Positions 53,715 through 56,850 of a stretch of DNA of 64,000 bases are shown piece after piece (within the stretch, counting starts at the first letter, position 1; each line of letters opens with the position of its first letter). Below the pieces are notes generated by a model. That model made no database searches. It was not told the DNA's origin and saw nothing but the letters and a program-made list of their open reading frames with translations. A program made the translations under genes and the position numbers. Location: positions 978,473-1,042,472 of the forward strand of contig WLXD01000002.1 of the NCBI GenBank assembly GCA_012103255.1, read 5' to 3'. Origin of the DNA: Acidobacteriota bacterium. Lineage in GTDB: Bacteria; Acidobacteriota; UBA890; WLXD01.

Positions 53715-54245
53715 ATGAAAGTCGCCTTCATCGGCACGCATGGCGTTGGCAAGACAACCTTGGGCTACGGTCTGGCAATGCGCCTGAAGCAACTGGGCGC
53801 CAACGTCGGGTTCCTCGAGGAAGTCGCGCGGCGCTGCCCGCTTCCCATCAACGAAAGCACGAGCGTCGACGCGCAGACGTGGATTCTGATGGAAACGGTA
53901 CGGCGCGAGATCGAACTCCAGGAGCTGTATACGGAAGTCGTCTGTGACCGCAGCGTCATCGACAACTACTGCTATCTCGAGTTCGGTGCCGGGCGCCGCG
54001 AAGCACTCTTCGCGATGGCCGCCTACTGGGCGACGACGTACGACATCCTGTTCAAGGTCCCGATCCGCCCCGAGTACCTGCAGAACGACGGCACCCGCTC
54101 GACCGATCGAGCATTTCAGCGAGCCATCGACGAGAAACTCGACGCTCTTCTGGAAGAGACCGGGGTGGACTACGTCGAGTTCAACGGGCTGGAAGATGCT
54201 GTCGAACGCGCGCGACTCGTATCGGGTCGGCTACCGATCGCGTAG
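53715..54245 (+). CDS. P-loop nucleotide kinase-like ATPase (AAA_28/NadR-like)
   Basis: The 176-residue protein has Walker A GTHGVGKTTLG at residues 8-18, a lid-like EEVARRCPLPINESTS, and VCDRSVIDNYCYLEFGAG, the D-R-S motif of the AAA_28 / NadR ribosylnicotinamide-kinase-like group that phosphorylates small molecules or nucleosides. A C-terminal stretch (FKVPIRPEYLQNDGTRSTD) binds the base in relatives. The substrate is unknown. It is about 80 nt upstream of the OsmC-like selenoprotein gene on the same strand. Confidence 0.75.
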   Translation: MKVAFIGTHGVGKTTLGYGLAMRLKQLGANVGFLEEVARRCPLPINESTSVDAQTWILMETVRREIELQELYTEVVCDRSVIDNYCYLEFGAGRREALFAMAAYWATTYDILFKVPIRPEYLQNDGTRSTDRAFQRAIDEKLDALLEETGVDYVEFNGLEDAVERARLVSGRLPIA

Positions 54246-54326
54246 ATCGTTGATGACGAAGCTCTGCCTGCCGGCTACCATTCGACCAACGCCGCCGATG
54301 CCGGTGGCGCCGACGACACGGAGATC

Positions 54327-54791
54327 ATGATGACCGACCCGTTCTACGTTGCGCGATCCAGCATTGCCAAGATCGAAGGCGTACATCGACGCGCTACGCT
54401 CGACACCGGCCATCAGGTCGACTTCGGCGTACACGGTGCCATCAAGGCGCATTTCAAACTCGACGATGCACCCGACCTCCCACTACCCGTCGACTACGTA
54501 GCCGCCGCCGTCGGCACATGAATGCTCGGCACTCTCAATGGCGCACTGGAAGTGCGTCAAGTAAAGCTCGCAGGCGACGCGATCGGCGCGCGAGTAGAAG
54601 GCATTAACGAGGTCGTCAACCGGATACCGGTTCTCACCGAATTGAAGGTGCACTACACGCTGACCATTCCGGAGGAATCGCGCGAGGTTGTCGATCGCGC
54701 GCTTGCATCGCACCAATCGAAGTGCCCGTCCGCTCAGAGCCTTGTGGGAGCGGTCGAAGTCAGCTGGACCGCAGACATCACCGAGGAGTAG
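54327..54791 (+). CDS. OsmC-family predicted selenoprotein (UGA at peroxidatic Cys position)
   Basis: Reading the in-frame TGA at 54519-54521 as selenocysteine (U) gives 154 residues. The first part ends PLPVDYVAAAVGT, then U, then MLGTLNGALEVRQVKLAGDA. The second part has NEVVNRIPVLTELKVHYTLT, the second conserved Cys in HQSKCPSAQSLVGAVEVSW. In OsmC hydroperoxide reductases the first conserved Cys sits in exactly this turn (GAC or AAC before the long helix), so U replaces the peroxidatic Cys and the resolving Cys is kept. GGAG precedes the ATGs at 54327/54330. A SECIS-like hairpin follows the TGA. Neighbours: kinase-like gene before, DUF2007 gene 2 nt after. Confidence 0.85.
54539..54559 (+). 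promoter_or_regulatory. Bacterial SECIS-like hairpin for OsmC UGA
   Basis: A 9-bp stem, TGGCGCACT pairing with AGTGCGTCA (one G-U pair), closes a GGA loop; opening the last pair gives UGGAA. The first loop G is 27 nt after the UGA, within the 16-37 nt window used for bacterial SECIS elements. Confidence 0.7.
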
Positions 54792-54793
54792 CC

Positions 54794-55153
54794 GTGATTT
54801 GCCCTACATGCCGTGCCGAGTACGTCGCAGGAGTCGAGACCTGCGCCGACTGCGACGTCTTGCTTGTCCACGAGTTGGTACCGGGCACGGCGGAGTCGGA
54901 CCAGGTCGACTGGGTGAAGTTAGTCGAGGTCACCGACCAGTTCGAAGCCGAACTGATCCACGGCTTCCTGGAAAGCGAGGGCGTTCCCTGCACGCTCGAG
55001 TCACTCGTCTTCAACGCCGAGCCGTTCACGTTCGGCCCGCTCTCCAAGGTCCGGATTCACGTGCCGGCTGAGTCAGTTGATCAGGCTCGCACGCTGTTGC
55101 GAGATCGAGAGGCGCCCGCAGCTGCCACCGAGCCTGTGATAGCCAGCGAGTGA
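54794..55153 (+). CDS. Zinc-ribbon plus DUF2007 (putative signal-transducing) protein
   Basis: A GTG 2 nt after the OsmC stop gives 119 residues. The N-terminal zinc ribbon is ICPTCRAEYVAGVETCADCD (two CxxC pairs). The second half, VEVTDQFEAELIHGFLESEG with VRIHVPAESVDQARTLL, is the small alpha/beta DUF2007 fold proposed to bind ligands. Tight spacing suggests co-translation with the OsmC selenoprotein. Function unknown. Confidence 0.75.
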   Translation: MICPTCRAEYVAGVETCADCDVLLVHELVPGTAESDQVDWVKLVEVTDQFEAELIHGFLESEGVPCTLESLVFNAEPFTFGPLSKVRIHVPAESVDQARTLLRDREAPAAATEPVIASE

Positions 55154-55165
55154 TCGACTAGCCCG

Positions 55166-55492
55166 TCAATCGTGGTCGGCCTCGATCGTCACGGCCGTAC
55201 CGAAGACGAGAATCTCGGCCGCGGACTGCATCACATACGAGGTCGAGAACCGGACTCCGACGATCGCGTTCGCGCCAAGTACCCGTGCCTCCTCGACCAT
55301 CCGATCGAGGGCCTGCTCGCGAGCCTCTGCCATCATCTTTGTGTAGTCGCTGATCTCGCCGCCCACCAATGCTCTCAGGCCGGCCGAAATGTCTCGGCCG
55401 AGATGTCGGGCGCGGATCGTATTTCCGCGCACGAGCCCGTGGCTCTCCGTAACACGATGCCCGGGCACCTGTTCGGTCGTGGAGACTTTCAT
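55166..55492 (-). CDS. YbjQ family protein (UPF0145)
   Basis: The 108-residue protein reads MKVSTTEQVPGHRVTESHGL, then VRGNTIRARHLGRDISAGLR, GEISDYTKMMAEAREQALDR and GANAIVGVRFSTSYV, the standard YbjQ order. The family forms pentamers and was proposed to bind heavy metals, but the role is unproven. Its ATG overlaps the anti-sigma gene stop by 4 nt. Confidence 0.88.
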   Translation of the reverse strand: MKVSTTEQVPGHRVTESHGLVRGNTIRARHLGRDISAGLRALVGGEISDYTKMMAEAREQALDRMVEEARVLGANAIVGVRFSTSYVMQSAAEILVFGTAVTIEADHD

Positions 55493-55968
55493 CGGATCAC
55501 CTCGTCGTAGCGTTCGGTCTTGCGTCGGTAGAGCCGCTCGCGCAAGAAGTTGATCGTCAGCAAGAGTAGTCCGCCGATGAAAGTTCCAACGCCGACGCGT
55601 AGGACCATCGGGACTTCTGAGTCGGTCAGGAACTCGGATCCGAGTTCCCACAATGTCCAACCGAGGATCAAGGTCAGGCCCACCCAGAGCAGTACCCACC
55701 CGACACTCCGGGTCAGACGGTCATAGATTCGCTCCCAGGCGTGCTCAGTGCTCACGCGGACCTCCTCGGTAGCCAGCGCATCGGCCGCGTGGCCAAGTCG
55801 CCGATAGGCCGCATGCTCGGCCCTGCATGACGGACAAACCGCCAGATGGTCCTCCACACGGCGAATGTCTTCGGGCGCTAGTTCCCCGTCAATGAAACCC
55901 ATCAGGAGGACAAGGGCCTCAGAGCACCCCGGTACGTGCGGAGCTCCGGCTGGCTCGTCTGGGGTCAT
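55489..55968 (-). CDS. Membrane anti-sigma factor (zinc-binding ZAS type)
   Basis: The 159-residue protein has the ZAS motif in VEDHLAVCPSCRAEHAAYRR (HxxxCxxC), then helices and two TM segments (VGWVLLWVGLTLILGWTLWE and VGTFIGGLLLLTINFL). Such proteins hold a cognate ECF sigma factor at the membrane until a signal releases it. It overlaps the sigma gene upstream and ybjQ downstream by 4 nt each, so the three are one operon. Confidence 0.88.
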   Translation of the reverse strand: MTPDEPAGAPHVPGCSEALVLLMGFIDGELAPEDIRRVEDHLAVCPSCRAEHAAYRRLGHAADALATEEVRVSTEHAWERIYDRLTRSVGWVLLWVGLTLILGWTLWELGSEFLTDSEVPMVLRVGVGTFIGGLLLLTINFLRERLYRRKTERYDEVIR

Positions 55969-56549
55969 TTTTCAGTCCTCCCGTCCGCGTTGATAAGCGC
56001 GGGATCTAGTTCGAGCACGCGTTCCTTCAATCGCTGTCGCGCTCGATAGAGTCGCGACATCAGGGTGCCCCGTGGGACATCAAAATGTCGCGACAGTTCG
56101 TCATAGGTGTAGCCCTCGACGTGCTTCAGCATCAGGAGTTCGCGATCTGCCGACGCCAGAGTTTGTATCGCGAGTCTGAGCACGTCACCGCCGCGACCCT
56201 CCGCTGAGCGATCCGGCGCCGTCCAGTGCCCTGGCCGTTCGGCCGCCGCCGCGACCCTCGCACGAGTTCTGTTGCGCGAACGGATGAAAACCTTCGCCCG
56301 ATTCACCAGGATGCCGCGAAGCCAGGGGTAGAAGGGTCGTCCGGGCTGGTGCGTATCGAGCGCCCCATAGGCAGCGACGAATGCCTCCTGGGCCACGTCT
56401 TCGGCGTCACGCCCGCCAACCAGGGCTCCCGCAACGCGAACCGCTTGCGCAAAGTACGCATCTACCAGATGGCGAAATGACCCGACCTGCCCACGACGAC
56501 ACTCGTCGAGGTAGCGCTGTTCAGTTGCCAGATCCATCACGGCAGCCAT
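55965..56549 (-). CDS. RNA polymerase ECF-type sigma factor
   Basis: The 194-residue protein starts at MAAVMDLATEQRYL behind GGGGAG. Region 2 includes VAGALVGGRDAEDVAQEAFV and YPWLRGILVNRAKVFI; region 4 is LASADRELLMLKHVEGYTYD plus SRLYRARQRLKERV. It is followed by its anti-sigma gene and ybjQ. ECF operons are normally autoregulated, so a promoter it recognises is expected in the roughly 300 bp upstream, shared with the divergent PilZ gene. Confidence 0.9.
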   Translation of the reverse strand: MAAVMDLATEQRYLDECRRGQVGSFRHLVDAYFAQAVRVAGALVGGRDAEDVAQEAFVAAYGALDTHQPGRPFYPWLRGILVNRAKVFIRSRNRTRARVAAAAERPGHWTAPDRSAEGRGGDVLRLAIQTLASADRELLMLKHVEGYTYDELSRHFDVPRGTLMSRLYRARQRLKERVLELDPALINADGRTEK

Positions 56550-56850
56550 CTTAATGCTCCCCTCCCTGGGGCTTTGCATTCGGAACCTCCCGCTGGGAAG
56601 CCCTGTGAACACGTTGTGCCGCCGCCTGCGGGAATCTTGCGGCAAAACACGCGCTGGCGACGGTTTTAGGGAGTTCCAAAGAAAGAGTGGACAGGAGGTG
56701 CCTGGGCCCGTCTCGAGGACGAAATCGCGGCACCGATTTGGCACTTCTTGCATATCAACAGCCAGTTCTAGCGATCTCTACGTTGAATTAGTCAGTTCTG
56801 ATCACTATGCTCCTCTCGTTGCTCGCTTCCCCGGCAAACGCCTCTCACAC
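56550..56850. other. Divergent intergenic region (ECF sigma / PilZ)
   Basis: About 300 bp. The left half is GC-rich; the right half contains the PilZ promoter with the TAGTCA-type repeats (listed separately). I could not identify an ECF-type promoter (AAC / CGT) for the sigma operon with confidence. Confidence 0.5.
56784..56812 (+). promoter_or_regulatory. PilZ gene promoter with TAGTCA-type repeat
   Basis: TTGAAT (56784-56789) and TATGCT (56807-56812) are 17 bp apart. Overlapping them, 56788-56812 is a two-unit version of the repeat-promoter at 41403-41437, with ATTAGTCA, TTCT and TCACTAT shared. Confidence 0.6.

Follow-up and report, generated by a model that had tools for sequence, protein, structure and literature searches.

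The sec-osmC frame and its TGA codon

The window analysed here is a stretch of 64,000 nucleotides from Acidobacteriota bacterium (assembly GCA_012103255.1, contig WLXD01000002.1, positions 978,473 to 1,042,472 of the forward strand), and its subject is sec-osmC, a candidate selenoprotein gene of the OsmC family. An earlier reading of the same DNA, made from the sequence only, had described one frame from 54327 to 54791 broken by a single TGA at 54519-54521, and a re-reading agrees: the frame is 154 amino acids (aa) long, its sole in-frame TGA is codon 65, and it closes with TAG at 54789-54791. The gene and its parts are:

54320..54323, forward strand: GGAG, a possible ribosome binding site 6 nt upstream of ATG 54330, as read from the sequence
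54330..54791, forward strand: sec-osmC coding sequence, 153 aa from ATG 54330 or 154 aa from ATG 54327, with TGA as selenocysteine (Sec) and TAG as stop
54519..54521, forward strand: TGA, predicted Sec codon for residue 65, at the position of the peroxidatic Cys
54539..54559, forward strand: predicted bacterial selenocysteine insertion sequence (SECIS) hairpin, a 9-bp stem with GGA loop at 54548-54550
54723..54725, forward strand: TGC, codon 133, the second and predicted resolving Cys, from sequence and alignments

The second ATG, at 54330, is favoured as the start codon because of the relatives and the GGAG at 54320-54323. By the sequence measures used here, the frame is protein-coding on both sides of the TGA. 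The Pfam OsmC domain (PF02566, gathering cut-off 27.5 bits) scores 42.5 bits when the frame is read through, compared to 24 bits, below cut-off, for the 89-aa portion past the TGA, which bears out the OsmC similarity reported for both sides. When in-frame TGA junctions flanked by 25 or more open codons in both directions are ranked across the window by the coding composition of their weaker side, TGA 54519 is the first of 509. In all ten pairs of five close members, the ratio of nonsynonymous to synonymous substitution rates (dN/dS) is 0.07-0.39 upstream and 0.08-0.38 downstream of the TGA, though dS often exceeds 1 and is near or above saturation in many of these pairs.

Searches of related genomes place the TGA at one shared residue in all full-length members used (31/31, the window gene included), and never TAA or TAG. 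Among 149 genomes, its own included, there are 17 matching places in 16 genomes; 16 of them contain a single TGA each, and the remaining one, a fragment at a contig edge, begins past the TGA site. In 396 genomes of the window's phylum, at E 1e-10 or better, 33 places were found in 32 genomes, all with one TGA except the same edge fragment (32/33). The 31 genes, the window gene among them, are these 33 places without the edge fragment (G079) and a partial match in G035; L099, where the motif matched by chance, was also left aside, and in L026 one base of the second Cys codon is unread. No Cys form appeared in the 396-genome search, in which the best 9 candidates per genome were scored; in the search of the phylum sample of a Terriglobia record it was the best 13, so that Cys copies may have been missed in both.

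Homologs without TGA have Cys at this site in 14 of 15 cases and Gly in one, six of the 14 having come from a pattern that contains the Cys codon and is able to find Cys forms only. These six come from records titled Bryobacterales, Terriglobia, Geobacter, Syntrophobacteraceae, Geobacteraceae and Desulfuromonadales. The remainder came from a database search with 919 matches; among the 120 listed, nine are full-length (eight Cys, one Gly), and the seven of these Cys/Gly proteins that were aligned are 56-61% identical to the window protein. HMMER aligns Sec65 and Cys133 with Cys residues of Thermus thermophilus OsmC (1ukk). The TGA thus stands where the first, peroxidatic Cys of OsmC lies, as had been proposed, and the second conserved Cys is kept. 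The family motif is U-[ML]-[LTMV]-G-T (UMLGT in the window), and UxxG is found in 16/16 rows of alignment A1. Two variants may be recorded here. The close relative P0003 has the Gly, perhaps through one-base loss of TGA; and genome G397 carries two family members, L051 with Cys and L133 with TGA, the latter showing the complete 8-bp stem on visual inspection.

If the TGA were a genuine stop, the locus would be a pseudogene, or a truncated OsmC restarting at ATG 54522. Gene callers follow such a reading: 111 of the 120 listed matches, the window's own product among them, are proteins of 89-101 aa that start at the Met after the site. We nevertheless consider it very improbable. A stop would not be confined to TGA in 31 of 31 genes; the codon that follows is ATG in 13 of them and, in the other 18, CTG or CTA, and therefore neither a restart nor the start of the short product is conserved; the low dN/dS upstream of the TGA, read with the saturation noted above, points the same way, as does a hairpin that is retained in TGA genes and not in Cys genes.

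The hairpin and the selenocysteine machinery

The 9-bp stem with GGA loop that had been noticed behind the TGA is confirmed at 54539-54559. It reads UGGCGCACU-GGA-AGUGCGUCA and has nine pairs, one being G-U; the hairpin starts 17 nt downstream of UGA, and its first loop base lies 27 nt past the last base of TGA, leaving 26 nt between. The rules for bacterial SECIS elements, as printed in PMC13188914, are a stem of 4-16 bp, a loop of 3-9 nt with G in the first two positions, a distance of 16-37 nt from UGA, and a minimum free energy of -7.5 kcal/mol or lower. The window hairpin, with a minimum free energy of -11.9 kcal/mol, fits all of them. By itself it is only moderately unusual. Dinucleotide shuffling of a 60-nt stretch gives no signal (z -0.65), codon shuffles that preserve the protein equal or beat it in 3.3% of trials, and Rfam at gathering scores has no match anywhere in the window.

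What convinces in the sequence comparison is the conservation of the hairpin among relatives. Seven or eight of the inner eight pairs are retained in 27 of the 31 TGA genes; in the six Cys genes 2-6 pairs remain, and the hairpin is kept in none. Summed over 16 sequences, protein-preserving codon shuffles never reached the observed value (0/1000). Across the 31 genes, pair 27-35 is G-C in 16, A-U in 12, G-U in one and broken in two, and pair 26-36 is C-G in 26, U-A in four and broken in one. Column 27 falls on the third base of a codon that specifies Ala in 27 genes and Val in the remaining four, and the Ala codons and their partners are combined as GCA/GTG in 12, GCG/GCG in 13, GCG/GTG (the G-U pair) in one and GCG/ACA in one. 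For the 26 genes with Ala at the first codon and Val or Ala at the second, Fisher's test gives p 3e-6, kinship ignored. Shifting the 3' arm by 1-3 columns lowers the proportion of paired cells from 79.6% to 24-57%.

All four components of the Sec machinery, for which a search had been proposed and whose lack was to count against a selenoprotein, are in the window's genome: SelA; SelB (346 bits with neighbours included in the frame, cut-off 242); SelD (330 bits, cut-off 125; L047:1480-2430); and tRNA-Sec with anticodon TCA (UCA). The SelD gene has its own in-frame TGA, in GGUAAK, and its product is predicted to be a selenoprotein itself. Of the 32 genomes that carry the family, 30 gave a SelA match (10/10 and 20/22).

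Several findings weigh against this interpretation or reduce its force. The other four TGA genes retain fewer inner pairs (four in L031, six in L032, two each in L097 and L104, which are L033 and L035 in the hairpin search). Substitute hairpins, with the loop 19 nt after TGA, or 25 in L032, can be drawn for them; these are weak, as protein-preserving codon shuffles reach them in 3.3 to 16% of trials. Two of the five covariation measures, double-change pairs and further pair types, are no higher than in shuffles, and the shuffle tests ignore kinship. The hairpin overlaps conserved codons, and part of its conservation is therefore protein-driven. SelA was missed in G313 and G316, drafts 88 and 93% complete, and in G007 it is an edge fragment only. 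It is also present in 48 of 60 genomes sampled from the phylum and in three of six genomes with the Cys form; being so frequent in the phylum, it discriminates weakly, and supports the Sec reading and does not prove it. The association of the TGA form with SelA (30/32 vs 3/6, Fisher p 0.02) was set aside as evidence, given how widespread SelA is in the phylum and that G397, one of the Cys genomes, also has a TGA copy.

Decoding of the TGA as some other amino acid, through a reassigned code or suppression, could be suggested by the Gly of P0003. It appears even less probable than a true stop, given tRNA-Sec(UCA) together with SelA, SelB and SelD in the genome, an ordinary adjoining gene that is terminated by TGA (55151-55153), and Cys in 14 of the 15 non-TGA members examined, including the six found through the Cys-containing pattern.

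The Sec reading of the TGA is strongly supported in comparative sequence analysis, because the Sec machinery, a conserved TGA at the Cys site, and a hairpin present in TGA and not in Cys genes all agree with it. We consider it likely that sec-osmC encodes an OsmC-family selenoprotein, in which UGA 54519 is read as Sec replacing the peroxidatic Cys, with an organic hydroperoxide as the predicted substrate.

Evolution, database record and genomic context

A tree of the family (46 members) was built after masking the alignment column of the Sec/Cys site, with an outgroup of 19 rows (four paralogs from the window's own genome and 16 of the 30 loci from the search with NF041052, a family introduced below, minus L081); L133, found later, is not in it. 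TGA members occupy both basal branches, and the Cys and Gly members lie among them. The best tree has five changes between Sec, Cys and Gly, at least three of which are forced by well-supported branches. A single clade of the 31 TGA members is rejected by the approximately unbiased test (p-AU 5e-38). A single clade of the eight close Cys proteins is not rejected (p-AU 0.385), and the number of Sec-to-Cys events is therefore a range. Repeated change from Sec to Cys is the preferred reading, because the same hairpin is found at the same codons on both basal branches; the alternative, repeated change from Cys to Sec, would need a similar number of steps as the tree is read. A 2026 review calls Sec-to-Cys change rare and mainly a matter of FdhA and SelD (PMC13188914).

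A broader proposition, for which we see the arguments as evenly balanced, is that this is an unrecognised and ancestrally selenium-dependent OsmC family, whose origin would be separate from that of the published one. Sec would have given way to Cys in three or more groups and to Gly once, with the SECIS decaying in the Cys genes. Such a family would be a bacterial exception to a mostly one-way passage from Cys to Sec; counted together with the L138/L139 type described below, it would be one of three Sec-OsmC lineages in a single phylum.

The 89-101 aa database proteins are probably misread genes. Each would follow a TGA; the DNA was seen for the window's copy and apparently for two more, P0014 and P0024. 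Because two of these stubs, P0083 and P0118, are labelled Gemmatimonadota and Candidatus Eisenbacteria, the family probably extends beyond a single phylum. The likely selenoenzymes of this branch are concealed in the databases as 'OsmC' stubs of about 90 residues, and predicted selenium-dependent OsmC, described from sequences of marine metagenomes, now reaches genomes throughout one large phylum. As natural Sec, Cys and Gly versions exist at about 60% identity, the reasons why an enzyme gains or drops selenium become directly testable.

The genes around sec-osmC are:

53715..54245, forward strand: AAA_28 ATPase gene, adjoining sec-osmC in both same-genus genomes (2/2)
54794..55153, forward strand: DUF2007 protein with a Cys-rich N-terminus, its GTG start right after the sec-osmC stop, adjoining sec-osmC in both same-genus genomes (2/2)
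55166-56753, other strand: YbjQ-like, zf-HC2 and sigma-70-type genes, beside sec-osmC in both same-genus genomes

Of the 120 listed relatives of a neighbouring transaminase, three are named Acidobacteriota, the nearest ones with a name among them, and Gemmatimonadota come lower in the list; the phylum sample of a Terriglobia record also overlaps that of the window, and the host phylum is on this basis taken to be Acidobacteriota. The block around sec-osmC is conserved in the two same-genus genomes, and the DUF2007 neighbour occurs in two of the eight regions compared. In G004, of the same order, the surroundings of the copy include a few genes that distantly match those of the window (28-50% identity), and the other five of the six regions from outside the genus share little with the window besides sec-osmC. 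With neighbours so little kept outside the genus, the context, the AAA_28 link included, gives no function for sec-osmC.

Proposed function and relation to other OsmC proteins

Structure prediction and Foldseek give a model with the OsmC fold and the two redox positions, and Arg21, His36 and Asp56 are invariant in the 20 rows of alignment A2. We infer insertion of Sec at residue 65, a peroxidase (hydroperoxide reductase) function, on the basis of the fold and the residue positions, and a resolving role for Cys133. In the proposed mechanism, the hairpin with the GGA loop downstream of UGA 54519 would be bound by SelB together with Sec-tRNA(UCA) and Sec would be inserted, putting selenium in place of the sulfur of the peroxidatic Cys, at a position within the long central helix. 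As a selenolate it would then attack the organic hydroperoxide, which gives a selenenic acid; Cys133 would resolve this to an Se-S bond, which a thiol donor would then reduce.

The same selenoprotein may instead have a redox job other than that of a peroxidase, as could be the case for YhfA-like members of the fold. The second-best match of Foldseek in the PDB is 1ml8, labelled 'structural genomics', which we take to be Escherichia coli YhfA. E. coli YhfA, of the same superfamily, is given no known activity in PMC5962072. Ten residues before Sec, where X. fastidiosa Ohr (XfOhr) has its catalytic Glu51, the window family has a hydrophobic residue, with the invariant Asp56 standing beside it, at -9; with no acidic residue at -10, a peroxidase triad is only putative in this family, and the gene neighbours offer no clue outside the genus. 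We regard a non-peroxidase function as unlikely, though well short of negligible, considering that the TGA coincides precisely with the peroxidatic Cys, that the second Cys is retained, and that Asp56 is invariant in A2. The hydroperoxide reductase reading is kept as the preferred one.

Sec-OsmC in itself is already known. Earlier papers describe three Sargasso Sea sequences in 2005 (PMC1088965) and five from the GOS metagenome (PMC2398784), all UxxT, and reviews from 2022 and 2026 mention it once, as UxxT (PMC9312934, PMC13188914). NCBIfam has a family NF041052, 'OsmC-related (seleno)protein' (OsmC_like_Se), of which the 2005 metagenome proteins would be members, judging from the motif. The window protein scores 28 bits against it (curated cut-off 95), and 11 of the 16 family members scanned match it with E-values of 0.01 or lower, the best being 1e-9. 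Only two of the 396 genomes have proteins that pass the cut-off: L056, with TGA and the motif ULLT, and L057, with Cys. G376 holds both L056 and a member of the window family, L094. L056 is 24% identical to the window protein. In the tree it joins L057, L058 and L060, which have Cys (support 98/94), and does not fall in the window family, which is separated by a branch with support 90/76 and long branches nearby. By these comparisons, the window gene represents a branch separate from NF041052. No paper text on this branch was found in a literature search of open-licence papers. The earlier suggestion that Sec-OsmC is rare and known from marine metagenomes holds for the published type; the window gene is of a different branch, present in 32 of the 396 genomes sampled from its phylum.

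L058 (G252:C31) and L060 (G046:C24) are open frames of 803 and 738 aa; in each, OsmC of the NF041052 kind is matched twice, which may reflect a tandem arrangement. A further Sec-OsmC type is seen in L138 (G069:C46:22700-23068:-) and L139 (G127:C136:24586-24960:+), with the motif LG[TA]UTS[IM]T, a hairpin loop 19 nt after TGA, NF041052 scores that stay under the cut-off, at 46 and 45 bits, and SelA in both genomes. Like the window gene, they belong to the OsmC superfamily and have TGA at the Cys position with a hairpin behind; unlike the window family, their motif resembles that of L001, a paralog in the window's own genome with Cys there, and they are not among the matches of the window family in the 396 genomes.

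The window gene thus shares with published Sec-OsmC and NF041052 the OsmC superfamily, a predicted Sec at the redox position and a SECIS-like hairpin after UGA, and differs from published Sec-OsmC in that its family lacks UxxT, the motif in the window being UMLG. Compared to the Ohr/OsmC hydroperoxide reductases, such as X. fastidiosa Ohr, E. coli OsmC and T. thermophilus OsmC, it has a predicted Sec for Cys, and its family has no acidic residue at -10 while Arg21, His36 and Asp56 are invariant.
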